This document shows, in pieces, positions 13,201 to 47,498 of a DNA stretch of 48,681 nt. The position numbers and the translations under genes were made by a program. Positions within the stretch are counted from its first letter, which is position 1; each line of letters opens with the position of its first letter. The stretch is from Singulisphaera sp. GP187 (lineage in GTDB: Bacteria; Planctomycetota; Planctomycetia; Gemmatales; Gemmataceae). The stretch spans positions 1-48,681 of the forward strand of contig CAMDQN010000038.1 of NCBI GenBank assembly GCA_945905925.1. Reading direction: 5' to 3'. The notes below the pieces were generated by a model. That model saw nothing but the letters and a program-made list of their open reading frames with translations, searched no databases and had not been told where the DNA came from.

Positions 13201-15746
13201 GCGTCGAACGTGGCCTTCGCGGTCGCGACTCGACCCGCGAGACCCGGCCCTTGCGCACCCTGAATCTCGCTCAGTTCGGTCTGCGCGACGCTCATCGCGA
13301 TTGTCGTTTGTTCCATCTTCGGCCGGTACTCCGCGTTGATCCGCTGTTCTTCGAGTCGGTACAACTCGAATGGCGCGGACGTGCGCTGACCATGCGCGAC
13401 GAGCATCTTCTCGACATCGGTCTTGTCGTTCGGGTTACCGGGTGCGCCGGTCTGCTCCGCGAACCGCCGCCAGCCCTGCGTCCCCAACAAGAGGTCGAGC
13501 GCAATCGCGGCACGCGGGTGATCCGTTAACAGGAAATCCGCGTGTTCGAGTTCGGCCGGGTGCTTCACCTCGCCGGACAATATGAAGTGCGTCGGCATCA
13601 GACGATCGGTCTTGTTGTCGGCCATCGTGATGACGCTGCGGTTCACGACACCGACGAGCAACACCGCGGGCGTTGGCTTCTCCTTGTCGTTGAACGCGGA
13701 GAGTTCGAGTTTCACCTTGCCGCCGGGCGTGTAACTCGACTTGTCCGGGTTGATGTTCAGCATGAGCATTTCGGCCGGCTTGCGGTACACGAGTCGTTCG
13801 GCGCGCGGAATCAAATTCGCGGCGCCCGGAGCACCCTTCGGTTCCTCGAACACCGTGATGCGGGTCACGCCGCCAACGTCGTCGCCCTTGAGCGAAACCT
13901 CGACCGGCTTACCGGCTTCCGCTTCCACTTTTTGGTGCGCGATCAAGCGACCGCGGGCGTACGCGCCGACGTGGAGTGTCTTCGCTTGCGCCGCTTGCAC
14001 GCGAATGCGGATCGTCGCGCCCTGCGCGGTGACGGCATCGAGCGACGTGAGCGCCACGCCATCGGCCTTCGCAACCGGCAGCGGGAAGCCTTCGGGAGTC
14101 GGCGCGGTGATGCCGCTCGGCGAACTGAGTTTGAGGAAGTACTTCGCGCCGGCGCGCGGCGTGAGCGTGAAGCTCCCCTGCCCGCGATTCACGCCGGGGT
14201 TGTCCGCGTCGGTCTCGGTCTTGATGTCGGGAACGACCGTGTTCGTGCCGTCCGTGATGACGCCCGTAATATCCGCCGGTTTGCCAGGCTCGGTGCCTTT
14301 GCTCGGCATGCGAATCTGGAAGTACACGCGACCCGACACGCCGTCGATCATCTCCCCGCCTTCGGGGAAGAACTCAATGTTGAGCTTCTTCGTGACGAGC
14401 GGAATCGGGCGCAGGATGTTTTCGAGATCGCTGCCGTCATCGATGGTCACGCTCAGCGACGCCGACGGCACGTCTTTCCGCGACTTCTCGAAGAGATCCG
14501 CCGGCACCTTGAAGCGGACGTTCAGAACCGCTTTGCCGGTCGGCTCGATCGCGAGTTTCGTGTCCTTCTGTTCGTGGAAACTCTTGCCGTCCACGCTCGC
14601 GACGACGAGCGCGGTCGCATTCTTCATCGGCCCGCCTGCGGTGCGCGACACTTCGATGCGCGCCTGCACCACGTCGCCGGGGCCATACGACTTGCCATCG
14701 AACTCCAACTTCTTCTCGAACGTGTCGGGAACGTACCGGTTAACGATGAACTTGCGCGTCTCGATCAACACGCCATGGGGGTTCTCGCTCGTCACTTCGT
14801 GGAGGTCGAGTTTGTACTCGCCGCCGGGTGCGCCGGCGGGAATCACGTATTCGCCCACACCGATTCCGCGAAGCGGTTTCTTGTCCGGTCCCATCACCGG
14901 TTGGAGGTCGCGAAGCAAGCGGCCGTTACCGACGTCGAGTTGGGTGACCGCATCACCGGGGTCGCGCAAACTGAACCTGAGGTGCTGATCGTTCGCGGGT
15001 GGCCGGAGCGTGGAACGTTCCAGCGTGAGCGAGCGGAACCGGACCGTTTCGCCCGGCTTGTAGAGCGGCTTGTCGGTCTGGAGGTGCGTGACGTACATCG
15101 GGCGCGCGAGCGGAATGCGTTCGGCCAGCGAACTGACTCGCTTGTCGTCGGTGAACGCGACCACTTTGAGGAACAGGTCCGTTCCGGGCTTCACGTTCTC
15201 CCAGAACTTGGTGGTGAGTACGAGCGGAGTCGCGACCCCGGGTTTGTCGTGCGCGTCGCGGAAGAGTTCGGCCCCGCTCGCGTCGGTCACCGCGATTTCC
15301 AGTCGGCTCGCTTTAACGGCGGTGCCATCGAGCTGGAGGGCTTCGATCTGCCACATGTTCGGCGCGCCGGGCTGAATACGGGCCGGGCCGGTGAGCCGCA
15401 CGGTGAAGTTCTTCTCTTCGAGGATCTTTCGCGCCGCGGCCATCTCGGCGCTGTACTTGATTGCGACGGCCTGCTCCGCGTCGGTGGCGTCCTTGAACGT
15501 CTTTTGCGCGGCGTCCTGCGAGGTCTTGTGTTCCACCTGGAGTCGGTCGTACTCGCCTTTCGCAGCGATCAGCGTGGCTTGTTTGTCGTTCGCCTCGCGA
15601 GACTTCTCGACCCAGTTAACGAGTTGATACCCCACGGGGATGCTCAGGAACAGCACGAGAACAATGCCGACCGCGCGCCAGTTGGTGGGCCGGTTCGTCT
15701 CGGCTTCCGGCTTCTGACCCGGCGACGGATCACGGTTGTCGGACAT
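10236..15746 (-). CDS. Alpha-2-macroglobulin family protein with thioester motif
   Basis: The protein has 1836 residues and starts at ATG 15746. A single N-terminal membrane anchor (AVGIVLVLFLSIPVGYQLV, residues about 25-45) and a heptad-like KQATLIAAKGEYDRLQVEHK coiled segment are followed by beta-rich macroglobulin domains (TDKPLYKPGETVRFRS). The centre carries two more membrane segments (about 876-896 and 905-927) and then a Pro/Gly/Ala-rich linker of about 170 residues that occupies the place of a bait region. The second half has the typical ETVYWHPVL...F.LSDDIARYEVLVAG block and the thioester motif GCFEQ (Cys about 1341, Gln about 1344) in an alpha-helical thioester domain, then a C-terminal receptor-like domain. 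Bacterial homologues trap proteases in the periplasm by a covalent thioester. A pbpC-type penicillin-binding partner, common in proteobacteria, is absent here. Confidence 0.92.
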   Translation of the reverse strand: MSDNRDPSPGQKPEAETNRPTNWRAVGIVLVLFLSIPVGYQLVNWVEKSREANDKQATLIAAKGEYDRLQVEHKTSQDAAQKTFKDATDAEQAVAIKYSAEMAAARKILEEKNFTVRLTGPARIQPGAPNMWQIEALQLDGTAVKASRLEIAVTDASGAELFRDAHDKPGVATPLVLTTKFWENVKPGTDLFLKVVAFTDDKRVSSLAERIPLARPMYVTHLQTDKPLYKPGETVRFRSLTLERSTLRPPANDQHLRFSLRDPGDAVTQLDVGNGRLLRDLQPVMGPDKKPLRGIGVGEYVIPAGAPGGEYKLDLHEVTSENPHGVLIETRKFIVNRYVPDTFEKKLEFDGKSYGPGDVVQARIEVSRTAGGPMKNATALVVASVDGKSFHEQKDTKLAIEPTGKAVLNVRFKVPADLFEKSRKDVPSASLSVTIDDGSDLENILRPIPLVTKKLNIEFFPEGGEMIDGVSGRVYFQIRMPSKGTEPGKPADITGVITDGTNTVVPDIKTETDADNPGVNRGQGSFTLTPRAGAKYFLKLSSPSGITAPTPEGFPLPVAKADGVALTSLDAVTAQGATIRIRVQAAQAKTLHVGAYARGRLIAHQKVEAEAGKPVEVSLKGDDVGGVTRITVFEEPKGAPGAANLIPRAERLVYRKPAEMLMLNINPDKSSYTPGGKVKLELSAFNDKEKPTPAVLLVGVVNRSVITMADNKTDRLMPTHFILSGEVKHPAELEHADFLLTDHPRAAIALDLLLGTQGWRRFAEQTGAPGNPNDKTDVEKMLVAHGQRTSAPFELYRLEEQRINAEYRPKMEQTTIAMSVAQTELSEIQGAQGPGLAGRVATAKATFDAANKQHTETAAELYKYETRSRRIQSWALPALMVSLIALGISGLSLAGQKSGGSRRPYYLGSVALFALGACALGAIVMTRGTKDAEVAWDEIAPMRNAPLEFFARKAAPNAQAARDMAANERADFPLKAVDGDRGPRAVAPQAPAPLPPMMPAGPDALPQPKAGPRGEAKPADGKFDEAKKMAENVNRNPAQADAIQRDKARLANALAKEQQPGRGDFARPRPVPGGGPMGGMGQPAEPGFAGKGGFGGRGRPVIEVMPFVVREYAHQRDPALGEVRSDFTETVYWHPVLVLPESGKATVEFQLSDDIARYEVLVAGHTLDGRIGAITKTIEARKPFSVDPKLPLEVSHTDIIDVPVRVTNDSGDKRRVEFTTLATGFKADGIFADGLELAPNGKGRKIVRLKANKLQGEGSLLVTGTSGADKDSIQRTTTIVPDGFPGVGSFSDRMERRAAGSITLPKDVVPGTLKVRLEVYPTSLSDLVKGLDGLLREPYGCFEQTSTSNYPNTLILDYMNQTNQTNPEAAKKARGLLDKGYAKLVSFECPDTPQKTRQGFEWFGGADQQHEALTAYGLLQFKDMARVHTVDAQMIKRTQTYLLSRRDGQGGFKRNARALDNFGGAPKPTTDAYIVWALVESDPDDTEKLDLKTEIAALKTQALDENSAGGKDAYFVALVANVLLQRGDRQAAHQLLDRLKDKHAKAGAVTGAVTSITRSGGRDLEIETTAITLLGWLRANDPKYSTAIKESTKWISQQRGGYGGFGSTQSTIMALKALTLFANKAKHPSESGEIKVSVGGKVIGTRKFTEKDVEVIGLDIENPEAVFKPGETTEVEIVTDAKQSYPFALSYTYTTLTPISAEKCQVNISTKLAKTEANEGDTVPLTVNLENRQKAGQGMTVAIIGIPAGMKVPTDMKQLTDLREKGVISFFELRGSRELVLYWREMAPEQKVALTVDLVCDVPGEYRGPASRGYLYYNADHKCWVPPLAIKIVPKE

Positions 15747-18628: not shown

Positions 18629-18722
18629 CTTGGCGAGCGGGGGCGTTAGCCCCCCTGTTTAAACCGTTCTGCGACCTCGCGCTGTGAAGCCAACTGGGGG
18701 CTTTCGCTCCCCGCTCGCCAAG
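18629..18722. repeat. Palindromic repeat, family A copy 2
   Basis: CTTGGCGAGCGGGG (18629-18642) pairs with CCCCGCTCGCCAAG (18709-18722). The inner arms GCGTTAGCCCCCC and GGGGGCTTTCGC are imperfect complements. It fills the gap between two convergent stops (18621 and 18729), where it probably also works as a terminator. Confidence 0.85.
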
Positions 18723-23414: not shown

Positions 23415-24854
23415 ATGAGCGAGTCACCGACCGTGTTCGAGTTGGATTGCGCGACCATCGTTCGCGAGCGGAAATGTGTTCTTCGCGATTTCAGTTGGAC
23501 GATGCGCGAGGGCGAAGCGTGGGCCGTGGTTGGGCCGACGGGGAGCGGGAAGACGACGCTCGCGGAGGCGCTCCTCGGACGCCATTCGCTCAACGGCGGA
23601 GAACTGCGGTGGGCGCTGTTCGACCGGCTGCGCATAGCCGGCCGGAAGATCGACTACCCGTCGCAGGTGGTCTCGCACGTTAGCTTTCGCGAAGACTCCA
23701 GGCTGTTCTCCTACGCGGGTCGCTACTACCAACAACGGTTCGAGTTCGCGGACAGTGACACCCCGTTGTCGCTCGAACAGTTCCTGCGCGCCGGCACGCA
23801 CGCGAGCGAAACCGACATCGCGCGCACGTGCGAACGGTTCGGGATCGCGGAGATTCAGTCGCAGCCTTTCATCACGCTCTCTAACGGGCAGACTCGCCGC
23901 GCGCGGCTGGCACGCGCGATGCTCGGCGCACCGGAACTGCTGGTCCTCGACGACCCGTTCATAGGACTGGATTCGGCCGCGCGCGCCGACCTCGCGGCGC
24001 TGCTGCACGAACTGGTCAACGACGGCAAGCGCCTGGTGCTGATTTGCCGCGAGGACGCGGTGCCGGGGTGGGTGACGAACGTGCTTCGTTTGATTTCGCG
24101 AGCGGGGGGCGTAAGCCCCCTGTTAAGCGAAGTTGCTCCACTCGCGACCAAATCAAACAGGGGGCTTACGCCCCCCCCTCGCCAAGAAGTCATCGACCTC
24201 CGCGACGTGACCGTGTCACACTCCGGTCACACGATTCTGGATCGCGTGTCGTGGACCGTGCGCACCGGCGAGCGATGGGCACTTCTTGGCCCGAACGGCA
24301 GCGGCAAGACGACGCTCCTCAGCCTCTTGTGTGGTGATCATCCGCAAGCGTACTCAAACGACGTGAAGCTTTTCGGTCGGCGCCGCGGGACCGGTGAAAC
24401 AATCTGGGATGTGAAGCGGAACGTCGGGTTGCTGTCGCCAGAGTTTCACCTGTACTTCACGCAACCGCTGACCGCTGACCGCGCCGCCGCGACCGGGTTC
24501 TTCGACACGCTCGCGGACCGCAAGACAACCGCGGAGCAGGACGACCGCGTGAAGGAGTTGTTCGCGGCGTTCCGGATCGAGCACCTCGCCGACCGCGCGT
24601 TCAAGTGTCTTTCCACGGGTGAGCAGCGGCTCGTGCTGCTTGTACGGGCGCTGGTGAAGCACCCGCCGCTCGTGATCCTCGACGAACCGTTTCAGGGGCT
24701 GGATTCAGAAGCAACCGCGCGATGCCGCGACTGGCTCGACCGCGAGTTAGGCGATGATCAGACACTACTGTTCGTTACGCACGAACTGAGCGAACTGCCA
24801 TCGACAGTGACACAGACGCTGCGATTGGAGAAAGGGAGGGTGGTAACGGGTTAG
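23415..24854 (+). CDS. modF: ModF-like protein with two ABC ATPase domains, interrupted in frame by a palindrome
   Basis: The protein has 479 residues from ATG 23415 (MSESPTVFELD). Domain 1 has Walker A GPTGSGKTT, signature LSNGQ and Walker B LLVLDDPF. Domain 2 has Walker A GPNGSGKTT, signature LSTGEQ and Walker B LVILDEPF, followed by the switch His in FVTHE. The block LCGDHPQAYSNDVKLFGRRR plus GTGETIWDVK is close to E. coli ModF as I remember it, so the ModF/PhrA assignment is well supported. ModF lacks membrane domains and is linked to molybdate metabolism by location in E. coli, but its role is unclear; no mod genes are seen here. The interdomain linker holds a 90-base palindromic repeat (24098-24187) that stays in frame. 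The 3' end overlaps the convergent gene by four bases. Confidence 0.88.
   Translation: MSESPTVFELDCATIVRERKCVLRDFSWTMREGEAWAVVGPTGSGKTTLAEALLGRHSLNGGELRWALFDRLRIAGRKIDYPSQVVSHVSFREDSRLFSYAGRYYQQRFEFADSDTPLSLEQFLRAGTHASETDIARTCERFGIAEIQSQPFITLSNGQTRRARLARAMLGAPELLVLDDPFIGLDSAARADLAALLHELVNDGKRLVLICREDAVPGWVTNVLRLISRAGGVSPLLSEVAPLATKSNRGLTPPPRQEVIDLRDVTVSHSGHTILDRVSWTVRTGERWALLGPNGSGKTTLLSLLCGDHPQAYSNDVKLFGRRRGTGETIWDVKRNVGLLSPEFHLYFTQPLTADRAAATGFFDTLADRKTTAEQDDRVKELFAAFRIEHLADRAFKCLSTGEQRLVLLVRALVKHPPLVILDEPFQGLDSEATARCRDWLDRELGDDQTLLFVTHELSELPSTVTQTLRLEKGRVVTG
24098..24187. repeat. Palindromic repeat, family A copy 3, inside the modF coding region
   Basis: The left arm 24098-24124 (GCGAGCGGGGGGCGTAAGCC and on) and right arm 24156-24183 (AACAGGGGGCTTACGCCCCC and on) pair perfectly over the inner 18 bases. 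The outer arm carries the same GCGAG / CTCGCCAAGAA ends as the intergenic copies. The 90 bases equal 30 codons and encode a linker containing GGVSPLLS and RGLTPPP. It adds no stop in the modF frame. Confidence 0.9.
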
Positions 24855-37605: not shown

Positions 37606-39510
37606 TTACCACGTCCAGTCGATGCCGTAGATGTGGTTCGCCTCCGGTTCGGAAATCTCCCAGTACACCCAACTCTTGTCTTCAGCCGTGAACGTGATCT
37701 TTGGACCGGTGTACAGCTGCAGGTCTTCGTGCTTCATCCGGTCGTCCTGGCGAGTCGGGGCGTAGAGCAGTCGGTACTCGCGGAACGGTCGGTCGATTGG
37801 GAACAGCATCAGCATCGAGGTCTTCACCGATCCCTCGTAACCGATCACGCCGAACCACTGGTCTTCGGGCGTTTGGAACACGTTCCAGCAGGTGCTGGCG
37901 TACCGCAGCGTGAACGCTTGCTTCGGTGGAATGTCGCTCACGTCGAATACGAGATGTCGCACCTTCATCGCCTGCGAACCCACGAAACCGGGCTTGTCCG
38001 TTGTGAACGCGCGGGCCTTATCCGCGTTCGGTCGCTGGGCTCGGTTGATCACGTCGCGCCCGGTCGTGCGAGTCTCGATTCGCAACTCATCGACCGTCGC
38101 GATCTTCGTCGTCTCGCGCCGCGTGGAGTACACGATCGCGCACTCGTCGGCCGGGTTGTTAGGATCGAGCGGCTTCCACCCGCGCATGTCAACGACGCAC
38201 TCGTCTTTGAGCACCTTGAACTTCGAGAAGTCCGTCGGCGGCAGCTCGGGCAGCGCGACGATGGGGTGCGGGGACGTGCGGTCTGGCGCTGGTTCCGATT
38301 CGCGGATCGCTTCGACCTGGAGGGTGATCTCTTGGCGGAGCGCGGCGGACACCGGAGTTGCTTGCTCCTTGCGGAACCAGTCCAGCGGCGACGGCAGGAA
38401 CAATGCGACGACAATTAGCGATAAGATCGCGATCGCTGCCGCGACCGGGCGCCACCACCCCTTCGCGACGCGGCGGGCTTCGTACCAGACGCCTGTGCGC
38501 GGACCCAGGAGCGCTTCGCCGTTGAGATACCGACGCAGGTCGTCGGCCAGCGCCGTGGCGCTCGCGTACCTTTCAGCAGGTTCCTTCGCGAGACACTTGC
38601 GGCAGATCAAATCGAGTTCGCGCGGAACGCCGGGCGCGCGACGTGCGGCCGGTTCGGGTTCGTCGCCGATGACTTGCCGAATGACGGACCACGCGTCACT
38701 GCCCTTGAACGGCACGGACCCGGTGAGGCACTCGTAGAGGATCACGCCGAGCGCGTACACGTCGGACGCGGGGCCGATGCTCTTCGTATCGCCCTTCGCT
38801 TGTTCGGGCGACATGTACGCCGGGGTGCCCATCACGGCCCCGGTTTGCGTGAGTTCTGCGCCGTCTCGCTTCGCCAGCCCGAAGTCCATCACCTTCGGTT
38901 CGCCCCACGATTCCGCGGTGGCGATTGGCGCGTCGAGCAGCACGTTGTGGGGCTTGAGGTCGCGGTGAACGATGCCGCGATCGTGTGCGGCCTGTACCCC
39001 CAGAGCGATCTTGCTAACGAGTTCCGCCGCAGCCTGCGGGAGCATCTTCCCGGACGCGCGGATGCGCTGGGTGAGGCTGCCGCCTTCCAAGCACTCCATC
39101 GCCATGAACGGGTGGCCCTGTGCCTCGCCGCTGTCGAAGATTTGAATGACGTTTGGGTGTCGGATGGCGGCGACGGCTTCGGCTTCCGCGACGAACCGTG
39201 CGATGTCGTGTGCGTTGGCGTGTCCGCCCGCGAGGACCATCTTCAGCGCAACGACGCGATTGAGTTTTAGGTGGCGCGCCTTGTAGACGACGCCCATTCC
39301 GCCGCGTCCGAGTTCGCTGATGATCTCGTAACCCGGCACGCTGACCTTGTTCGTTGCGAACGCTGCCGCGGTCCGCGTAACCTGATCTGGCGTTTGCACA
39401 AGTGTTTCGGCGTGTGGCGCGAATTCCGGCGCGGGGGTCTGTGTGACCGCGATCGCCGGGCCGGTGGTCGGCGGCGCGGGTCGCGGAACGTGTTGGGTTT
39501 CGTCGTTCAT
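37606..39510 (-). CDS. Ser/Thr protein kinase with C-terminal extracytoplasmic domain
   Basis: The protein has 634 residues from ATG 39510. A Pro/Thr-rich N-terminus of about 60 residues precedes a complete eukaryotic-type kinase: GRGGMG glycine loop, VALKMV with the ATP lysine, MECLEGGSL, HRDLKPHN catalytic loop, DFGLAK, GTPAYMSPEQ and SDVYALGVILYECLTG. One membrane helix (PVAAAIAILSLIVVALFLPS) separates it from a C-terminal domain of about 240 residues without a known name; it has Trp- and Phe-rich strands (RLLYAPTR, KSWVYWEISEPEAN) and may sense an extracellular signal. Only the N-terminal side has the kinase, so the topology is cytoplasmic kinase, periplasmic sensor. Confidence 0.93.
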   Translation of the reverse strand: MNDETQHVPRPAPPTTGPAIAVTQTPAPEFAPHAETLVQTPDQVTRTAAAFATNKVSVPGYEIISELGRGGMGVVYKARHLKLNRVVALKMVLAGGHANAHDIARFVAEAEAVAAIRHPNVIQIFDSGEAQGHPFMAMECLEGGSLTQRIRASGKMLPQAAAELVSKIALGVQAAHDRGIVHRDLKPHNVLLDAPIATAESWGEPKVMDFGLAKRDGAELTQTGAVMGTPAYMSPEQAKGDTKSIGPASDVYALGVILYECLTGSVPFKGSDAWSVIRQVIGDEPEPAARRAPGVPRELDLICRKCLAKEPAERYASATALADDLRRYLNGEALLGPRTGVWYEARRVAKGWWRPVAAAIAILSLIVVALFLPSPLDWFRKEQATPVSAALRQEITLQVEAIRESEPAPDRTSPHPIVALPELPPTDFSKFKVLKDECVVDMRGWKPLDPNNPADECAIVYSTRRETTKIATVDELRIETRTTGRDVINRAQRPNADKARAFTTDKPGFVGSQAMKVRHLVFDVSDIPPKQAFTLRYASTCWNVFQTPEDQWFGVIGYEGSVKTSMLMLFPIDRPFREYRLLYAPTRQDDRMKHEDLQLYTGPKITFTAEDKSWVYWEISEPEANHIYGIDWTW

Positions 39511-39618: not shown

Positions 39619-42375
39619 CTACTCGTGCGTTTCGAGGCGGTGGAGTATCTCGTCGAGCAACTGCGGGCCGGTTTTGCGGTACGCGGCCTCGTGCGGGCAT
39701 GCCTGCACGCAATACGGTTCGTCGCCGTTGCACAGGTCGCAATTCACCGCACGACGCGCCGCGGTTACCTGCGGGTTGCCCTCTTGGTACGCCGCCGCAG
39801 CCGGGTTCGCTTGGCCGCGCGGAACCATGTGAATCGAGCCGTAAGGGCAGTTCCGCTCGCACAGCCCGCACCCGATGCAGTGGTTCTCGATCACCACTTC
39901 GAGGTGGTTCCCTTCACGGTGGATCGCGTCCACCGGGCAACCATCCATGCAGTAGGGCTTGTGACACGACCTGCACGAAGTCGCCACCAAGAAGTCACCG
40001 AACCGCAAGCCTTCGCGCAACAGACGCGCGTTACCGTCATGCGAGTCGGCACACGCTCGCGTGCATTCGTCGCACCGCGTACAACTCTTCAGGTCCAGCA
40101 CCAACAACTTCTGACCCTGATACAAGCCCTGCCGGACGTAGTCGCGAAGCACCGCCGGGGGCGGGGTGCCCTTCACACCGGGGACCGCCGGGCGCGCCGC
40201 AGCCTGCAACCCCTCTCGCAGCGCCGGGAACTTGTCGCACATCGCGCGGAACACCGGACCGGGCACGCGAACCAGTTCCACCGGGTCGAGCGCGGCGACC
40301 GTCGCGGTCCGCACGCCCGGCCGGTCGGAGAGCAGTGCCGCTTCGCCGAAGTAGTCGCCAGCCGAGAGGAGGCGCAACACTTGCTCGCCACCGCCGGCCG
40401 TGGTGAAGACACGCACCGTCCCGAGCCGGATGATGTAGAACGCCGCCGCCGTATCGCCCTCCGCGACGATCGTCTCGCCGGCCGCGATGCGGCGGAACTC
40501 CGCACCCTTATCGTCTACCTTTTCGGCCAACAGGAACGTGATTGCCTGCTCGCGCTGCACCTGGTCGAGCGAGGCGAACAACCGGCCGCCGGACACGCTC
40601 GTTTGGAGCGCGCGTAACGTGTACATCTCCTGAAGGTCTTCGCGCGCCGACGCCGACCGCTGCATCATGTCGAGCATGTTTCGCGTGACTTCGTACACCA
40701 CGACCGGCCCGCGTTTCTTCGGGTTCCGGGTCGCGGTCGTCCAGCCGTTCGCGTCCTCCCCCTTGGTGAGTTCGGGGTTATCCGGCTCGGCGATCCCAAT
40801 GACGGTCGCGACCCGCGGGCGCTGCGTCAGGCAGGTCATCTCGCCCAGAACTAACTCGTCGCCGGTCCGAACCGCGAGCAGGTTACCGGGGTCGCTGCCT
40901 TTCTTCGGTTTCGGCTTCGTGCTGCTACCGAATAGCGCGCCGAAGAAACCCGGCTTGGTTGCGGTCGTGGCGGCGCGGGCGTAGATCTCGAACGTGCCGG
41001 TGCCCTGCAGCAAGAACGCGGTGCTTCCGTACTCGCCCTCTTCGCAAAGCACCTTCTTCTCGCCAGGCTCGATCTCCCACTTGCGCACCGCGCCCTCGTT
41101 CCACTTCAGGTACGAGTATGGGATCGACCGGAACGGGAACACGACCCGCGGCCCGCGCGTTGGGCTTTCGTAGAGCAGCCAGACGTTCAGCATCTCGTCG
41201 GCGGTGAGGAACCCCGACGACTTCGGGAACGACGTGTTCGGGTTCACGGGAATCTGCTCGGGCGAATCTTCCCAGGCGCGGGGCCGGACGCGGCGCCGCA
41301 GCGAGAGCGCGCCGGTGGGGCAACTGTTCATGCACTCGCCGCACTGGACGCAGGTCGATTCGCGCATGATCGAGTCGAGGTCGAAGCTGATGCGCGTGCC
41401 GTAACCCTTGCCGGTGTGCCCGATCACCTTGAACGGCTTCACCTCGGAACACGCCCGCACGCACCGGTCGCACAGGATGCACCGGTCGTGATCGACGACG
41501 ACGGTGCGCGACGAGTACGGGTAGCCCTCGTCCACCTGGGAGTTCCACTCGTCCCACGCGTTACGGAGATCGGGTCGCTCTTCGTTGCGCTCGGTGACGC
41601 TCAGGGTCGGAATGAGGGGCAGTTCGATGCGCCGGGATTTGGGAATCGCTTCTTGCGCGGTGTTCTTGCTGGGCATCTCCGGCGGGCGGCGGAGGCTCTC
41701 ACGCGGTTCGATCACGTTGAGCGACCGGGCGACGGTGCTCAACTCGTTCTCGTACCGCTTGGTCTCGGTCAGCGGTTCGTGGAAGTGGTCCGCGACCAGG
41801 AACTCGGCGAGCATCTTCACCGACTCGTTCACGTCGGACGACGCGCGCTCGATGACCTTCGTGTCGGCCGAATCCTTCTGGTCCGGGTTGTACCCAGGCA
41901 TGCCGGCGCGGGTCGTGACCACCATGTTCGTTTCGACGCGGTGTTGGCACGCGGGCACCAGTTTGCGCCCGGCCGTCAACTTGCCGCGTTTCATGCTCGA
42001 AATGTGAACCGAGCACATGCGGCACACCGCGACCGGGGTGACGTGCCGCTGGTGGCACAGCACCGGGATGCGGGTGCGCAGTTCATCATCCGACCAGATG
42101 CCTTGTGCGACGAGTTCGGCGGCGGCGTCGTAGATGGTCGTGGTTCGCGGGATGAGTTGGCCGTCCTGGTCGCGGAGCGAGTTGCCCTGCGAGTCGGACT
42201 TGGGGACCGCGCGCGGAACCTCGACCGCGTACCCGTCGATGACGATGGTGACGAGGTCTTTGAACCGCTCGCGGGTCTCCTTCTCGCGGCGCACGAGCAT
42301 GTCGTTGTCGTCGCGGGCGAAGAGCGACTCTTCTTCGCGACCGAGGGAGATTTCGGGATCGGCAAATTCGGCCAT
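39619..42375 (-). CDS. Giant iron-sulfur protein: NuoG-like N-terminus, two cNMP-binding domains, four-cluster ferredoxin
   Basis: The protein has 918 residues. Residues about 40-150 form a plant-type [2Fe-2S] domain (Cys 107, 118, 121, 143). Residues 299-309 (CILCDRCVRAC) and 342-352 (CVQCGECMNSC) hold two [4Fe-4S] motifs, as in NuoG/HydA N-termini. A degenerate cyclic-nucleotide-binding domain spans about 430-575. A well-formed one spans about 615-715 and has the phosphate cassette FGEAALLSDRPGVRTATV with its arginine. The C-terminus (765-893) carries four further [4Fe-4S] motifs (first cysteines 765, 801, 833, 879), as in DmsB/HycB-type electron-transfer subunits. There is no signal peptide, so it is cytoplasmic. 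It is last in a minus-strand operon with a NuoEF fusion, a decaheme cytochrome and a membrane protein. Nothing similar is known to me as a characterised protein. Confidence 0.9.
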   Translation of the reverse strand: MAEFADPEISLGREEESLFARDDNDMLVRREKETRERFKDLVTIVIDGYAVEVPRAVPKSDSQGNSLRDQDGQLIPRTTTIYDAAAELVAQGIWSDDELRTRIPVLCHQRHVTPVAVCRMCSVHISSMKRGKLTAGRKLVPACQHRVETNMVVTTRAGMPGYNPDQKDSADTKVIERASSDVNESVKMLAEFLVADHFHEPLTETKRYENELSTVARSLNVIEPRESLRRPPEMPSKNTAQEAIPKSRRIELPLIPTLSVTERNEERPDLRNAWDEWNSQVDEGYPYSSRTVVVDHDRCILCDRCVRACSEVKPFKVIGHTGKGYGTRISFDLDSIMRESTCVQCGECMNSCPTGALSLRRRVRPRAWEDSPEQIPVNPNTSFPKSSGFLTADEMLNVWLLYESPTRGPRVVFPFRSIPYSYLKWNEGAVRKWEIEPGEKKVLCEEGEYGSTAFLLQGTGTFEIYARAATTATKPGFFGALFGSSTKPKPKKGSDPGNLLAVRTGDELVLGEMTCLTQRPRVATVIGIAEPDNPELTKGEDANGWTTATRNPKKRGPVVVYEVTRNMLDMMQRSASAREDLQEMYTLRALQTSVSGGRLFASLDQVQREQAITFLLAEKVDDKGAEFRRIAAGETIVAEGDTAAAFYIIRLGTVRVFTTAGGGEQVLRLLSAGDYFGEAALLSDRPGVRTATVAALDPVELVRVPGPVFRAMCDKFPALREGLQAAARPAVPGVKGTPPPAVLRDYVRQGLYQGQKLLVLDLKSCTRCDECTRACADSHDGNARLLREGLRFGDFLVATSCRSCHKPYCMDGCPVDAIHREGNHLEVVIENHCIGCGLCERNCPYGSIHMVPRGQANPAAAAYQEGNPQVTAARRAVNCDLCNGDEPYCVQACPHEAAYRKTGPQLLDEILHRLETHE

Positions 42376-42390
42376 TGTGGAAACTCTCTG

Positions 42391-42481
42391 CTTGGCGAGC
42401 GGGGGGGCGTAAGCCCCCTGATTCTTGTCGCTTGTCGTGGGGAGGAGGTCGCATCAGGGGGGCTTACGCCCCCCGCTCGCC
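42391..42481. repeat. Palindromic repeat, family A copy 4, inside the electron-transfer operon
   Basis: CTTGGCGAGCGGGGGGGCGT and on (42391-42422) pairs with 42453-42481 (ATCAGGGGGGCTTACGCCCC and on), nearly perfect over about 28 bases. It lies between the NuoEF stop (42490) and the iron-sulfur protein start (42375). Confidence 0.88.
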
Positions 42482-42489
42482 TCGGAACG

Positions 42490-44541
42490 TTACCCCATCT
42501 TCGTCTGCGTCTCTTCCATGAAGTACGCGATTATGGTCGCGAGCGGGATCGGGGCGACGTACCCCAGCCCACAGATCGAGGTCAATTGGAGCGTCTTCGT
42601 GATCTCTTTCACGTCGGACTTCACGCGGTCCGCTTCGGCCCCGGACACCGGCTTGCCGGCGTCGCGGCGGGTGATCAAGTCTTGTCCGATCTGCACCAAC
42701 TTCTGCGACCCGAGACGGCACGGGACGCACTTCCCACACGACTCGTTGCGGTAGAACTCTGTGTAGTTCACCGCTTGATCGAGCAGGTCCACTTCGCCCG
42801 CGTACACGGTGATCGCGGCGCCGAGCATCGGCTCAACCGGGAACCGCAACGCGCCGTTCATATGGCGGAAGAAGTTCAGGTCCAGAGGGATTCTGAGCAG
42901 ATCGAGTTCCTTCGCGCCCATCGGCAGGTAGGCGTTGAGGAACCACGCCATGAAGTCGGCGTCCTGCGCGCTGCGCTCGCGGATCTTCGCGACCGCGTCG
43001 GCGCGTTTCTTCTCGTCGAACTTGGGATCGACCGGAATCTTCGCGGGCAGCAACCCGCCGGACGGTCCCGACGCCGCGACCGCTCGCAACTTGCCGTTGA
43101 TCCCACCGCAGTACCGTTCGCCGGTGAACAGCTCGCCGAGTGTCAAGCCGACGGCGACTTCGTACACGCCCGGGCGGACCACATCGCCGCTCACGGAGAA
43201 CAGCCGGCGCCCGCCGAACTTGATCTTCGGGTCGGCCTGGAGACGCCAGCCACCCATCTCGTACTTGTCGCCGCCAAACAGCACGATGCCGGGCGCCCAC
43301 GCGAGCGTTTCGACGTTGTTCACGACCGTCGGTCGGTCGCGCAGGCCGTTCGTGGTAAGTTCGGGCGGGCGGTTGCGCGGCTGGCCGCGACGATCCTCCA
43401 TCGCCTCGATGAGCGCCGATTGCTCGCCGCAGATGTACCCGCCCGGGCTTTCAAACACCTCGACCGGGAAGTTGCGCCCGGACCCGAAGATGTTCTCGCC
43501 GCACGCACCGAGTTCTTCGGCGCGGTGGATCTCTTCGCGGAGCGCGTGAATCTGCTCGTGGTACTCGTGTCGGACGAAGATGTAGCCCGCCGCGCCGCCG
43601 GTCATCAGGCCCGCGAGAATCACGCCTTCCACAACGAGGTGCGGCATCCGCAGCAAAATCTCGCGGTCCTTGAATGTGCCCGGTTCGCTCTCGTCGCCGT
43701 TGCAGACAACGTACTTTTCGGATCCCTGTTCGCGCCACACGTCGAGCCACTTCTGGTACGTGGGCGCGCCGGCACCACCCATACCGAGCAGGTTCGCGGT
43801 CTTCAGTTCCCAGAGCAGCGGGTGGAACCGCTGGACGTAAGTTTCGAGGTCTTTGCCGCCCATCTCGCGGGGCGGCGGCACGATGGGCCGAATGAGCTTC
43901 GCGATATAGTCGGTGAACCGCTTCACGGCGCGGTAGTCGCGGGGCCAGCCCTGGCGCCCGTACACGTCGAGCGACCATCCGGCGGCGCGGAGCGGCGAGG
44001 GTTCGCCCGGGGCGGCGACGACGCCCTTGGGCAGCGCGTGCCCGCGGTTAATGTTTGTGTGTGGTTCGTACTCGGCGTCGGGGTCTGCCATCGGCGGCTC
44101 GCGGTCTTCCGCGAGCGCGGTGAGAACTTCTTCGAGGTCCGAGCCGGGGCGGTTGGCGTACACCCAAGCATGCACGTGTTCGGGCATGGGCCGCTTCTCG
44201 ACCCACACGGCCGGAGCGCGGTCGCATCGTCCCAGACACGACACGCCTTCGACACACACCTTCTTCCCGGTGCGCTCTGACAGTTCGGCCGCGAGCACCG
44301 GCAGCCCGGTCTTCTCGTTCAGGAGCGCCGCCGACCCGCGCAGGTGGCAGGTCATGTCGCGGCACACCTTCATCTCGACATCGGGCGGGTCGGTGCGTTC
44401 GAGCCGAAAGCCGGGGAAGAAACTGCTCACCTCCTCCAGCCGATACATTGGCACGTCGATCTCGCGCGCGAGTTCCTTCAGCTCCTTGTCGGGGAGGAAG
44501 CCAAACCGGTTTTGGATGTCGCGAAGCCGCTGAACAATCAT
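42490..44541 (-). CDS. NuoE-NuoF fusion protein (NADH-binding, FMN, iron-sulfur)
   Basis: The protein has 683 residues from ATG 44541 (GAAGG upstream). Residues 1-150 are NuoE-like, a thioredoxin-fold [2Fe-2S] domain with Cys 60, 65, 102 and 106 (CRDMTC, CLGRC). Residues about 225-683 are NuoF-like: LLGMGGAGAPTYQKW (FMN loop; the usual R-G-G-A-G-F-P is changed to M-G-G-A-G-A-P), NGDESEPGTFKD, GGYICGEQSALIEAMEDRRG, and the [4Fe-4S] site ESCGKCVPCR with a distal Cys 657 (SICGLG). It likely oxidises NADH and passes electrons on. About 30 extra residues lie around 536-570 relative to complex I NuoF. It is not part of a nuo operon here. Confidence 0.93.
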   Translation of the reverse strand: MIVQRLRDIQNRFGFLPDKELKELAREIDVPMYRLEEVSSFFPGFRLERTDPPDVEMKVCRDMTCHLRGSAALLNEKTGLPVLAAELSERTGKKVCVEGVSCLGRCDRAPAVWVEKRPMPEHVHAWVYANRPGSDLEEVLTALAEDREPPMADPDAEYEPHTNINRGHALPKGVVAAPGEPSPLRAAGWSLDVYGRQGWPRDYRAVKRFTDYIAKLIRPIVPPPREMGGKDLETYVQRFHPLLWELKTANLLGMGGAGAPTYQKWLDVWREQGSEKYVVCNGDESEPGTFKDREILLRMPHLVVEGVILAGLMTGGAAGYIFVRHEYHEQIHALREEIHRAEELGACGENIFGSGRNFPVEVFESPGGYICGEQSALIEAMEDRRGQPRNRPPELTTNGLRDRPTVVNNVETLAWAPGIVLFGGDKYEMGGWRLQADPKIKFGGRRLFSVSGDVVRPGVYEVAVGLTLGELFTGERYCGGINGKLRAVAASGPSGGLLPAKIPVDPKFDEKKRADAVAKIRERSAQDADFMAWFLNAYLPMGAKELDLLRIPLDLNFFRHMNGALRFPVEPMLGAAITVYAGEVDLLDQAVNYTEFYRNESCGKCVPCRLGSQKLVQIGQDLITRRDAGKPVSGAEADRVKSDVKEITKTLQLTSICGLGYVAPIPLATIIAYFMEETQTKMG

Positions 44542-44558
44542 CGAAGAACCTTCATACG

Positions 44559-44646
44559 TGGCGAGGGGGGGCGTAGGTCCCCTGTTAAAGCTCAGCGCGA
44601 ACAGTTACTTCGGGGTTTAACGGGTGGCTTACGCGTCCCGTTCGCC
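44559..44646. repeat. Palindromic repeat, family A copy 5 (degenerate), inside the electron-transfer operon
   Basis: The left arm 44559-44589 (GTGGCGAGGGGGGGCGTAGG and on) and right arm 44616-44646 (TTTAACGGGTGGCTTACGCG and on) share the family A layout but have several mismatches, so this copy seems older. It lies between the decaheme cytochrome stop (44659) and the NuoEF start (44541). Confidence 0.75.
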
Positions 44647-44658
44647 TCGAACAAATCG

Positions 44659-46284
44659 CTACTTGGTCTTGCCTTGTAGCCACTCGGTCAGAGTGAGCGG
44701 CTTGCCCGCGTCGCGTGCCACAGCGCCGCGCCCCTGGAGTGGGTTGTCGCCGTTGTGGTAACGGTGGCAGTCGGAGCAGGCGTGCCGCGCGCCACCGCCG
44801 ACGATCTCCTTGTTGTCGGGTAGAAGCACCGTCGTGCCGGGTGGGGCGTGACACGCCTGACACGTTTTCACGCCAACGATCTGAACCGGTTCCGGCTTGT
44901 CGGCTTCCGTCGGGGCGAGGTACGCGGCGTCCGTGCCCGGGTGGCAGGTGGCGCAGGTGGCTCCTCGGTGCGAGGCGTGGTTGAATTTCGCGTGCTTGAA
45001 CCAGACGGTGCGGTCCGGGACCACTGCGACACGCAACTTCGCCTTCGCGTCGGCGCCCGGTTCAATTTTGTGGCACTTCGCGCAGATCCCGCCGCTGAAC
45101 ATGATTCCCTCTGCGTCGGCGGTGAGGCGATCGACCTCCTGACCGAGCGTGCGCGGCGCCAGGTCGTTCGGTTGTGGATCGAGTTTGCCCCCGAGTTCCG
45201 GCGGGCGATTGAGCGCGGGGTGCCCGCGCTCGCTCAGACCCCGCAGGTAGCCGGCCCGGAGTTCGGTAACCAGATCAGCCGGCTGCTTCCGGTGCGACAC
45301 GTCGAACGGTGCCACACGGTATTGATCCTTACCCACCGTACTCACACCCTCCTTCGCCTGAACCGGGTGGCACGAGCGGCAATGCACCTCGAAGTTCACG
45401 GGGAGGAAGTGCGCACCCTCGGTACGTGGCGGCAGCAGTGAGTGCGTCGGGTCGCCCTTCGCGAGCGTTTTCTTGATGTCCTGGAAACCCGTTGTGTCGA
45501 TGCCGGAGTCGAGCGCGTGACACGACACGCAGTTGAGTTGAATTTTGGTGTCGTCGGTGGCGCCCGCAGGTGCGTACCGGGTGACAGCCGCGCCGCCGCC
45601 GATCTTGCGTAGTTGGCCCACCGTCATGCCCGCTTGGCCCGGGTCATACGCCTGACCCGCGGTCATGTGGACCGCGTGGCTGAACTTGAGCGTCCGCGGG
45701 TTCTTTTCGATGTCGAGTGACCGGAACTCTGGGTGGTCCGTCACAAAGTTGGTGATCTTGTTCTGGTACGGCTTGGTGGCCTTTGAGTTCGCCGCGTCGT
45801 GGTACTTGCCCAGGTTCTCGTGGCACTGGTTGCAGTCCTTGTCCGCGAGCCGGACGAGAGAGCCGAGCCGCCCGTTGTGGTCGTGGTGGCAGTTGGAGCA
45901 GCGGTTATGGAACTTTTTCGCGTCCGTGTTCGCGGAGTCGTGGTGGACCGGTCCGCCGTGACACTTCTCGCACGTCAGATCGTGCCACCGGTCGTGGGCT
46001 TTGAACACGGAAATCGGCCCGAGTTCGCTGATCCCGTGGGCCTTGTGGCACGCCTCGCAGTTGTATTCGAACGCAGTATGGACGTTGGCGAGCCGGCCGT
46101 GCGAGTGCGAGTATTGGACCCGCTGCGCCGGTTTGGCAACGTCCACCACGCCCCAAGCACCGGCGGCGAACAGCGCGATCCAACTGAGGGCGATCTTCCC
46201 GCGACGGAGCGGGTCCGGCCGGCGGAAGTATCCGCGCTTCCCGGTGAACCGGTCCGACAGGTCGCGACTTGGTGAGCGAGGCAT
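44659..46284 (-). CDS. Membrane-anchored decaheme cytochrome c
   Basis: The protein has 541 residues from ATG 46284 (GGGAAAGAG upstream; the 36 codons further up lie in a palindrome). An N-terminal uncleaved anchor (GKIALSWIALFAAGAWGVVDVA) puts the rest in the periplasm. There are ten C-x-x-C-H haem sites: CEACH, CEKCH, CSNCH, CNQCH, CVSCH, CRSCH, CAKCH, CATCH, CQACH and CSDCH. Many additional histidines (for example HSHGRL, KFSHAVH, KFNHASHRG) can serve as distal ligands, as in cytochrome c3/NapC-NrfH type multihaem proteins. It is probably the periplasmic electron carrier of the complex formed with the adjacent gene products. Confidence 0.93.
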   Translation of the reverse strand: MPRSPSRDLSDRFTGKRGYFRRPDPLRRGKIALSWIALFAAGAWGVVDVAKPAQRVQYSHSHGRLANVHTAFEYNCEACHKAHGISELGPISVFKAHDRWHDLTCEKCHGGPVHHDSANTDAKKFHNRCSNCHHDHNGRLGSLVRLADKDCNQCHENLGKYHDAANSKATKPYQNKITNFVTDHPEFRSLDIEKNPRTLKFSHAVHMTAGQAYDPGQAGMTVGQLRKIGGGAAVTRYAPAGATDDTKIQLNCVSCHALDSGIDTTGFQDIKKTLAKGDPTHSLLPPRTEGAHFLPVNFEVHCRSCHPVQAKEGVSTVGKDQYRVAPFDVSHRKQPADLVTELRAGYLRGLSERGHPALNRPPELGGKLDPQPNDLAPRTLGQEVDRLTADAEGIMFSGGICAKCHKIEPGADAKAKLRVAVVPDRTVWFKHAKFNHASHRGATCATCHPGTDAAYLAPTEADKPEPVQIVGVKTCQACHAPPGTTVLLPDNKEIVGGGARHACSDCHRYHNGDNPLQGRGAVARDAGKPLTLTEWLQGKTK

Positions 46285-46293
46285 CTCTTTCCC

Positions 46294-46396
46294 AGTGTTT
46301 GGTGTTTTGTGTTTAGTGTTTGGTGTTCGCAGTGCAACTCGAATGGGCAAAAGGGGACGCCCAAACGCAAAACACGAAACACCAAAGACCAAACAC
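46294..46396. repeat. AT-rich imperfect palindrome inside the electron-transfer operon
   Basis: AGTGTTTGGTGTTTTGTGTT (from 46294) is a mismatched complement of AACACCAAAGACCAAACACT (ending 46396). The sequence units resemble the palindrome at 8354-8460. It lies between the cytochrome b-like stop (46400) and the decaheme start (46284). Confidence 0.7.
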
Positions 46397-46399
46397 TCC

Positions 46400-47281
46400 C
46401 TACCAGTACTTCAGCGCGCGGACCGCGTGGAGGATCATGAGTGTGGTCATCGCGACGGAGAGCGGGAGGTGGACGAGTTGCCAGTTGTGCAACCAAAAGT
46501 AGAGCTGGGCCTGCGAGTCCCAGCGGCGCCGCAGGTTGGCGAGTTCCTGGAGTCGGTCGAGGTCGTCGCGGGCCTCGGGCGGCACCGCCTCGCGGAGTCG
46601 GGCGAACCGGCGCTCGGCTTCCGCCGAAGCCGTGAGCGGGGACCGAGAGTGCCGCCCTTCCTGAAGGTACGGCAGAAGCACGTCGTCGCGGAACGCTTCG
46701 AGTTCGGTCTTCAGCGGGCCGCTGATGAGCGGTTCGGCGGCTTCCGCTTCCGGTGGCACGGTCGTCAAACTCGTGATGACCCGTTTGGCCTCGTCCGCGT
46801 GGTACTCGCCAAGTCGGTCGATCTGCGACGCGATCGTTTCTCCGGGGATGTCCGCGAGTATCTTCTGGGGGAGCCACTGTTGCATCACGAGACCCCACAC
46901 TCCGCTGAACGTGACCAACAGGAACAGGATCATCGTTGTGGCGGCGAGCGGCCCGCCGTACCCGAACCCGGCGTGGATCAGGATGACAGGGAGGCACACC
47001 AGCCCCATCCAGATGTGGAGCCGCATCCAGGCGCGGGTGCGGCCCAGTCGCATGCGGCGGAACCGCTTGCGCAGGATGATGGCCATTTCAAAGAACACGA
47101 TGGTGCCGCCGACCACGCCGCACAGGACGCCAAACCAACTACTGGGTACGGGAGGCCACTCCCACAGCGTGGCCAATCCCCCGAGCCTGGCTAAGACCGC
47201 CCCAGCGAAGGTGATTCCGAACGTGGCGAGCACGATGGCAGTGATCCGCCACTGCACCGTCTTTGTCTTTCCGAGAAGCAC
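46400..47281 (-). CDS. Cytochrome b-like integral membrane protein
   Basis: The protein has 293 residues from GTG 47281 (GGAGCC upstream). There are about five membrane segments: ITAIVLATFGITFAGAVLA, WFGVLCGVVGGTIVFFEMAII, LHIWMGLVCLPVILIHAGFGY, ATTMILFLLVTFSGVWGLVM and VHLPLSVAMTTLMILHAVRAL. Histidines in the third (LH, IH) and last (LHNW, VH, LH) segments are placed like the haem-b ligands of di-haem membrane cytochromes. A soluble helical domain of about 130 residues (residues 140-265) sits before the last helix. No assigned family name is certain. As the first gene of the operon it should be the quinone-facing or electron-transfer membrane subunit for the decaheme and iron-sulfur proteins. 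Confidence 0.8.
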   Translation of the reverse strand: MLLGKTKTVQWRITAIVLATFGITFAGAVLARLGGLATLWEWPPVPSSWFGVLCGVVGGTIVFFEMAIILRKRFRRMRLGRTRAWMRLHIWMGLVCLPVILIHAGFGYGGPLAATTMILFLLVTFSGVWGLVMQQWLPQKILADIPGETIASQIDRLGEYHADEAKRVITSLTTVPPEAEAAEPLISGPLKTELEAFRDDVLLPYLQEGRHSRSPLTASAEAERRFARLREAVPPEARDDLDRLQELANLRRRWDSQAQLYFWLHNWQLVHLPLSVAMTTLMILHAVRALKYW

Positions 47282-47498
47282 TCGCGGCTCCGGTCGTGCG
47301 TCGTGATGGTTCTTCCAAGTACCGGATAGTAACGCACCGACACGAGGCAGTCAACGATTTAGAATCGGCTACTTTGACAATGTAGTAGCCACACTCCATG
47401 TGCCGTGACGAGAGCGCTGAGACGCTCGGCAGTTTTGAGGTGGCAGTCGGCCACCGCCTTGCGGTCCAGACTCGTCGCGAAGGTGATGAAATTGCTAT

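Follow-up and report, generated by a model that had tools for sequence, protein, structure and literature searches.

A predicted NAD(P)H-linked iron-sulphur, cytochrome b and decahaem cytochrome c operon with cyclic-nucleotide-binding domains in Planctomycetota

Contig CAMDQN010000038.1 of Singulisphaera sp. GP187 (assembly GCA_945905925.1), analysed over its full length of 48,681 nucleotides and called the window below, carries on its minus strand a run of four open reading frames (ORFs) for a membrane cytochrome b, a decahaem cytochrome c, a NuoE-NuoF fusion (NuoEF) and a large iron-sulphur (FeS) protein with domains of the cyclic nucleotide monophosphate (cNMP)-binding type. On a judgement somewhat better than even, these proteins would form a membrane-spanning oxidoreductase that passes electrons from reduced nicotinamide adenine dinucleotide or its phosphate, NAD(P)H, to the decahaem cytochrome c, with electron flow gated by a cyclic nucleotide. 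Three things are observed: conserved cofactor ligands, a conserved gene order, and one core that is combined with NAD(P)H modules of three different kinds.

46400..47281, minus strand: membrane cytochrome b, 293 amino acids
44659..46284, minus strand: decahaem cytochrome c, 541 amino acids from its likely start; the ORF opens at 46392
42490..44541, minus strand: NuoE-NuoF fusion (diaphorase), 683 amino acids, with a 2Fe-2S cluster, a flavin mononucleotide (FMN) site and an N3-type 4Fe-4S cluster
39619..42375, minus strand: FeS-cNMP protein, 918 amino acids

A preliminary description had proposed this four-gene run as an NADH-linked electron-transfer complex. The ORFs, domains and ligands agree with the run, and the NADH electron-transfer interpretation is supported at the genomic level. 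The intergenic gaps are 115, 117 and 114 bases, taking 46284 as the decahaem start. The arrangement appears to be more than chance, since other genera, other families and a second phylum share both its gene content and its order. An artefact of mis-assembly is ruled out by six of six widely flanked loci from the window's genus (L037-L042), in which all four genes recur in unchanged order.

Cofactor ligands of the four proteins

The FeS-cNMP chain is matched in Pfam by Fer2, by pairs of Fer4 and by the cNMP domain. The preliminary description had counted one 2Fe-2S and six 4Fe-4S clusters in it, and this count is borne out by 28 ligand cysteines present in all 24 aligned homologues that possess the NuoG-like part.

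41947..42057, minus strand: ligands of a NuoG-type 2Fe-2S cluster, C107-C143 (Fer2_4; 24/24)
41320..41481, minus strand: two NuoG/HydA-type 4Fe-4S clusters, C299-C352 (Fer4_Nqo3 and Fer4; 24/24)
40651..41133, minus strand: first cNMP domain, approximate limits, divergent in the window's genus (Gly-Glu, Arg and Ala in 24/24)
40231..40494, minus strand: second cNMP domain with intact cassette FGEAALL...RTAT (PF00027, E 2.1e-23; Gly-Glu, Arg and Ala in 24/24)
39697..40083, minus strand: four 4Fe-4S clusters, C765-C893 (Fer4 matches; 16 cysteines in 24/24)

The closest solved structure to the NuoG part is the A subunit of a NiFe hydrogenase (7t2r). The His-Cys3 ligands of cluster N5 are missing, the corresponding stretch having no cysteine in the window protein and at most two in the 24 homologues, and the molybdopterin-like C-terminal domain of NuoG gives no Pfam match up to E 1. 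The phosphate-binding cassette of either cNMP domain keeps its Gly-Glu, Arg and Ala without exception in the 24 NuoEF-type proteins. In some core-only relatives (L066, L068, L070 and L072), the third and fourth C-terminal 4Fe-4S motifs are separated by a long insert that gives the impression of a beta-sandwich.

The NuoEF chain comprises a NuoE thioredoxin-like 2Fe-2S domain, the Nuo51 FMN domain and the NADH_4Fe-4S domain, as recognised by Pfam, with an SLBB domain below cut-off. All eight cluster cysteines are present in 30 of 30 aligned proteins, and the NuoF part retains the FMN-site residues together with the GxGG, K and NxDESEP motifs. Its best match among solved structures is an electron-bifurcating HydB.

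In the membrane cytochrome b, His89, His103, His271 and His285 are conserved in 46 of 46 aligned proteins and likely form the ligands of two b haems (His89/His103 and His271/His285). The partners of each pair lie 14 residues apart within one helix, as they also do in the cytochrome b of the bc1 complex. An AlphaFold model (predicted local distance difference test, pLDDT, 94.2) consists of five long helices, which would span the membrane, and a helical domain at residues 134-259. The domain is predicted to be cytoplasmic because of the model and of a positively charged loop (residues 71-82) that holds seven Lys or Arg. Two family profiles were compared with this protein: DUF4405 matches at E 3e-4 and 21.7 bits, below the cut-off of 26.7, and Ni_hydr_CYTB (HydC/FdnI type) does not match up to E 1, though it does reach E 1.4e-4, below cut-off, in a Sphingobium homologue. 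A sequence search of the PDB gave no convincing match.

The decahaem protein begins with an N-terminal membrane anchor (helix 25-50 in the model) that is followed by ten CxxCH motifs. An alignment of 41 decahaem proteins has all ten haem sites in every one, with CxxxCH at site 2 in two of them. A simple count of the CxxCH pattern gives six in L039 and nine in L128, L129, L136 and L149; the missing site in L128 and L136 is the CxxxCH. Beyond the motifs, nine additional histidines are invariant and two more are present at 93%, which suggests ten bis-His haems and a conductor rather than an enzyme. The probable start of the gene is 46284, which corresponds to residue 37 of the ORF as called. Of the 18 alignments to relatives that were listed, 12 support this start by opening at residues 34-40: six from residue 37 itself (L037, L038, L039, L041, L043 and L049) and six within that range (L042, L044, L045, L048, L050 and L051). 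The other six begin at residues 19, 22, 55 (three alignments) and 94. The model of this protein has a pLDDT of 75.1 and a predicted template-modelling score (pTM) of 0.64, and a PDB sequence search with it found no convincing match. Fold searches with the cytochrome b and decahaem models returned nothing at E <= 0.001.

A shared core and its NAD(P)H modules

Gene order was followed in a scan of named genomes that took the best 80 of at least 571 confirmed matches; its counts are lower bounds. Among the matches listed, NuoEF adjoins the FeS-cNMP gene in 72 of 74 usable loci (those of the best 80 with at least 500 bases upstream), and cytochrome b and decahaem genes are adjacent on one strand in 49 of the 49 loci holding both. 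The preliminary description would have fallen had the gene order not been conserved, and it withstands these counts. The whole order lies on one strand in 40 of the 49. Wide flanks were available for 43 loci, of which 34 carry both cytochrome genes and 36 a gene for a tetrahaem cytochrome c. All six tetrahaem- or pentahaem-type neighbours that were scanned score above the cut-off of PF13435 (cytochrome c554), one by a narrow margin; three tetrahaem-type PF13435 genes stand in tandem on another contig of the window genome. Across 43 loci, the distance matrices of the four proteins correlate at r 0.87-0.93, a figure that includes shared species history and leaves out L080, L133 and L143.

Within the window's genus, 19 of 19 genomes (its own included) match over most of the FeS-cNMP protein. 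The nearest named relatives among the matches listed are a planctomycete metagenome-assembled genome (MAG), at 91% identity, and the isolate Gemmata sp. IIL30, at 82%, which suggests that the window comes from a planctomycete of Gemmata type. At the level of the order, 64 of 102 genomes match at E <= 1e-30. An even draw across the phylum gave some match at E <= 1e-60 in 58 of 294 genomes, eight of which extend in one match from profile position 67 or below to 838 or above, out of 852; G061 and G216 span nearly the full profile in two pieces. In Verrucomicrobiota, 11 of 194 genomes match, the only full-length match being the genome used as the search centre. Of 28 fetched NuoEF loci (L037-L062, L075 and L076), 25 also carry a cytochrome b and a multihaem gene. 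Four loci (L101, L120, L127 and L148) come from MAG records titled Candidatus Kuenenia stuttgartiensis or Akkermansia muciniphila; L101, the only one of them on the tree described below, groups with other planctomycete rows, and the record names may be unreliable.

NuoEF appears to be an add-on. What recurs without it, in planctomycetes and Verrucomicrobiota, looks like a core of cytochrome b, decahaem cytochrome c and a protein with two cNMP domains and four 4Fe-4S clusters. Among the order-level loci L063-L074, 8 of 12 have a cytochrome b and a ten-haem gene beside the protein with cNMP and four 4Fe-4S motifs. A further 20 NuoEF-free loci include 13 with a cytochrome b and a multihaem gene (in one of these the ten haems are split over two ORFs, and another shows nine) and four more with one of the two genes. 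An unrooted tree of the shared region was built from 63 of 70 rows, seven being left out where the motif-based cut did not work. In this tree, 35 of 36 NuoEF-bearing rows form one group (support 100/100) while L062 falls elsewhere, which suggests one or two gains of the NADH module, or its loss in other lineages.

A second module is found in another group of the tree, comprising eight loci (support 100/97), where an FNR-type flavoprotein with a 2Fe-2S domain stands beside the core in six. Four of these six have a cytochrome b and a ten-haem gene, one has its haems split over two ORFs and one has only cytochrome b. A weak FNR match also occurs in the NuoEF-bearing locus L155. In L181 (5899-7515), the FNR-type reductase beside the core carries an FHA domain.

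The distribution beyond planctomycetes and Verrucomicrobiota was viewed through a plasmid search only, in which 12 of 72,556 records match at E <= 1e-20. These are Sphingobium plasmids, and the two of the 12 that were examined reveal a third module: the FeS protein starts with a pyridine-nucleotide-disulphide oxidoreductase (Pyr_redox) domain in both. Next come genes for a cytochrome b homologue (E 2e-19 and 7e-19) and a decahaem homologue with ten CxxCH (E 2e-31 in both), these E-values being computed against the homologue set of this analysis. Both operons continue with a metallophosphoesterase that matches the SpdA/CpdA models below their cut-offs. Each of the two FeS proteins has two matches to the cassette pattern, the first with Ser for Ala. 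The Sphingobium plasmid loci are L192, L193 and L194, with NZ_CP020539.1 covered at 795000-830000. NZ_CP020539.1 also encodes a decahaem protein with a weak FHA-like domain and a 1329-residue multihaem protein that ExtM matches in part and below cut-off. The FHA domains beside the core hint at control by phospho-threonine.

Electron path and competing explanations

The best argument for NAD(P)H as cytoplasmic partner is that one core is combined with three NAD(P)H modules unrelated to each other; this also favours transfer from NAD(P)H to the decahaem protein. In the favoured scheme, NuoEF on the cytoplasmic side would take a hydride from NAD(P)H onto FMN, from which electrons would pass through N3 into the N-terminal part of the FeS-cNMP protein, with its NuoG-like 2Fe-2S cluster and two 4Fe-4S clusters. 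Their exit would be by the four C-terminal 4Fe-4S clusters, not by a His-Cys3 N5, the ligands of which are absent. From there the route would lead to the cytoplasmic domain of cytochrome b, the proposed docking site of the C-terminal clusters, and through a stack of two b haems that crosses the inner membrane. The anchored decahaem protein would receive the electrons on the far side and hand them to periplasmic carriers, such as the c554-like tetrahaem proteins of many relatives, for delivery to a sink. The cNMP domains, placed between input and output clusters, may switch the contact. Assembly, direction, gating and sink are all predicted here from sequence.

Gating would probably be exerted by cyclic AMP or cyclic GMP (cAMP/cGMP). 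This reading rests on the Gly-Glu, Arg and Ala retained in 24 of 24 proteins, the Sphingobium cassettes with their phosphodiesterase-like gene, and three matches to class III cyclase domains in the window genome.

A broader proposal, to which we give rather less than an even chance, is that of a plug-and-play family of wires, in which a core switched by a second messenger accepts three unrelated NAD(P)H modules. Working without quinone, such a wire would be a redox valve operated by cAMP/cGMP that delivers electrons from NAD(P)H straight to haems in the periplasm. The assembly, if it works as proposed, would add a further class of conduits for electrons at the inner membrane of Planctomycetota, Verrucomicrobiota and Sphingobium, would tie cyclic-nucleotide signalling directly to electron flow and not by way of transcription, and would provide the periplasmic multihaem cytochromes of planctomycetes with a predicted cytoplasmic source of electrons.

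Several observations weigh against the favoured scheme. In many core-only loci, the flanks fetched show no recognisable NAD(P)H module, 9 of the 43 wide loci among the matches listed lack cytochrome b, the decahaem gene or both, and the window's own locus has no tetrahaem neighbour. The genome already has two Complex1_49kDa matches, on other contigs, so that the gain from a further NAD(P)H-linked complex is not obvious. The nucleotide pocket of NuoF is also changed: the second Glu of GEE is Gln (GEQ) in 28 of 30 proteins, the Phe of GAGFPTG is present in only 1 of 30, and, with Aquifex NuoF as comparison, Met replaces Arg in 28 of 30. The substrate could thus be something other than NADH, and NADPH could take its place. 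Variants of NuoF at Glu183 are said to accept NADPH; the Gln is nonetheless not diagnostic of NADPH use, because a solved bifurcating HydB has Ser at that position. Two cNMP domains had been claimed in the preliminary description. The second stands as a PF00027 member with its phosphate-binding cassette, but the first, searched alone in the window protein, is not significant (E 0.12), and a hidden Markov model of the second domain gives it an E-value of 0.23, against 0.19 for the best shuffle, which is not above controls. This first domain is recognised in more distant relatives, at best with 7.6e-9. Among the FNR-group proteins, the pattern search finds one cassette in seven of eight and none in L183; the second cNMP domain has probably decayed there. 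Support for the scheme as a whole is genomic.

Electrons could instead, or in addition, leave cytochrome b for the quinone pool, giving an NAD(P)H:quinone or decahaem:quinone oxidoreductase of the Geobacter Cbc/CbcL type. CbcL combines a di-haem b part with a multihaem c domain and acts in the inner membrane as a quinone oxidoreductase (PMC6295460, PMC9129911). The window cytochrome b is weakly similar to b561-type bundles (Z 8.1, 3.7 Å over 132 residues; Dcytb Z 7.2), both values lying within helical-bundle noise. The conserved FeS chain on the n-side and the NAD(P)H modules, however, make up a complete path without quinone, and this alternative is considered unlikely.

The favoured NAD(P)H-to-decahaem path could also run in reverse, with periplasmic electrons entering via the tetrahaem and decahaem proteins and reducing NAD(P)+ or ferredoxin inside the cell. 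Every cofactor is a reversible carrier, and c554 in ammonia oxidisers is the electron acceptor of an oxidising enzyme. By established bioenergetics, such a flow would nevertheless have to overcome the membrane potential and raise the electrons to about -320 mV, and no recurrent, strongly reducing periplasmic donor enzyme was seen among the neighbours, most of whose ORFs are without identification. We give reverse use only a small chance.

FMN-based bifurcation, in which NAD(P)H electrons would be split between the high-potential haems and a low-potential ferredoxin by way of the extra 4Fe-4S clusters, is suggested by the best structural matches, namely a bifurcating HydB for the NuoF part and 7t2r, likewise bifurcating, for the NuoG part. 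No extra thioredoxin-like or C-terminal ferredoxin domain is found in the NuoEF chain by Pfam, and the core is also served by other flavin modules that would not bifurcate in this way. Some Bfu subtypes are without clusters B3-B5 (PMC11406978), yet bifurcation is regarded as very improbable. A soluble diaphorase and a membrane cytochrome pair acting as separate machines under common control would fit the 9 of 49 loci, among the matches listed, in which the cytochrome pair is otherwise oriented or further off, but adjacency is kept in core-only forms and in another phylum and the distances of the four proteins correlate, which leaves this idea the slightest of chances.

Known systems and neighbouring features

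The whole assembly is covered by none of the Pfam and NCBIfam families and solved structures listed, in accordance with the preliminary description, which knew of no named complex of this make-up. The literature searched likewise contained no published description, within a coverage that excludes most subscription journals and could miss a passing mention. The assembly is apparently an undescribed variant of trans-membrane multihaem conduits.

The closest likeness on the cytoplasmic side is to the complex I N-module (NuoEFG) and HoxFU, with which the window set shares the FMN domain, the N1a-, N3- and N1b-type clusters and two 4Fe-4S clusters. HoxF also joins NuoE and NuoF parts in one chain. 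The window set differs in lacking the N5 ligands, the molybdopterin-like NuoG domain and a membrane arm in the operon, in the altered nucleotide pocket, and in the fusion of its FeS protein to cNMP domains and a four-cluster ferredoxin. Respiratory complex I itself was rejected: the NuoE/NuoF ligands for FMN, N1a and N3 are present, but the N5 and molybdopterin-like features of NuoG are not, none of NuoA, H and J-N is among the four genes, and the two Complex1_49kDa matches lie elsewhere in the genome.

At the membrane, the nearest relative in design is CbcL of Geobacter, with two membrane b haems and a multihaem c part at the inner membrane (PMC9129911, PMC6295460). CbcL is a single chain that combines the multihaem c part with a six-helix, HydC/FdnI-like b part (PMC6295460). 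By comparison, the window set has two genes, five helices (in the model) instead of six and ten c haems instead of nine, and adds an n-side arm of NAD(P)H and FeS modules as well as cNMP domains. The two separate genes and five long membrane helices of the model rule out CbcL itself.

Rnf-MmcA of Methanosarcina acetivorans similarly connects a cytoplasmic redox arm to a multihaem c outside the membrane (PMC11024163). By contrast, the window operon has no Rnf membrane subunits, b haems would carry the electrons, and it possesses an NAD(P)H arm instead of a ferredoxin arm, together with cNMP domains. The RnfA, B, C, D, E and G set is absent, the only matches being to RnfC and RnfB and below cut-off. 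Bfu-type bifurcating hydrogenases share the NuoF/NuoG-N type of electron module (PMC11406978); by comparison, the four window genes lack a hydrogenase domain and the accessory BfuB domains. Hydrogenase models match far below their cut-offs only, through the FeS parts. Identity of the set with Rnf or with a hydrogenase was accordingly rejected as well.

Upstream of the operon, one further feature was recorded.

47326..47354, minus strand: promoter-like by consensus match only, ahead of the cytochrome b gene

It is the sole promoter-like site at a gene boundary on the operon strand. The region contains three such sites on both strands, against 0.8 (standard deviation 1.0) in shuffled sequence. 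Palindromes resembling repetitive extragenic palindromic (REP) elements, near GGGGGCGTAAGCCCCC, occur in pairs about 55 bases apart at 18639-18711, 24105-24175 and 42403-42473. With up to two mismatches there are 12 matches, both strands summed and perfect sites counted on both, against 0.05 expected. One pair lies within the operon, between nuoEF and the FeS-cNMP gene. Kinase genes flank the operon at 37606-39510 (by Pfam) and from 47732 onward (by eye), and the contig ends at 48681. Elsewhere in the window, a tRNA-His call by ARAGORN at 7239-7333 sits in a GH3-family gene and is probably false, and 10236-15746 encodes an alpha-2-macroglobulin-like protein of 1836 residues with a TED domain.

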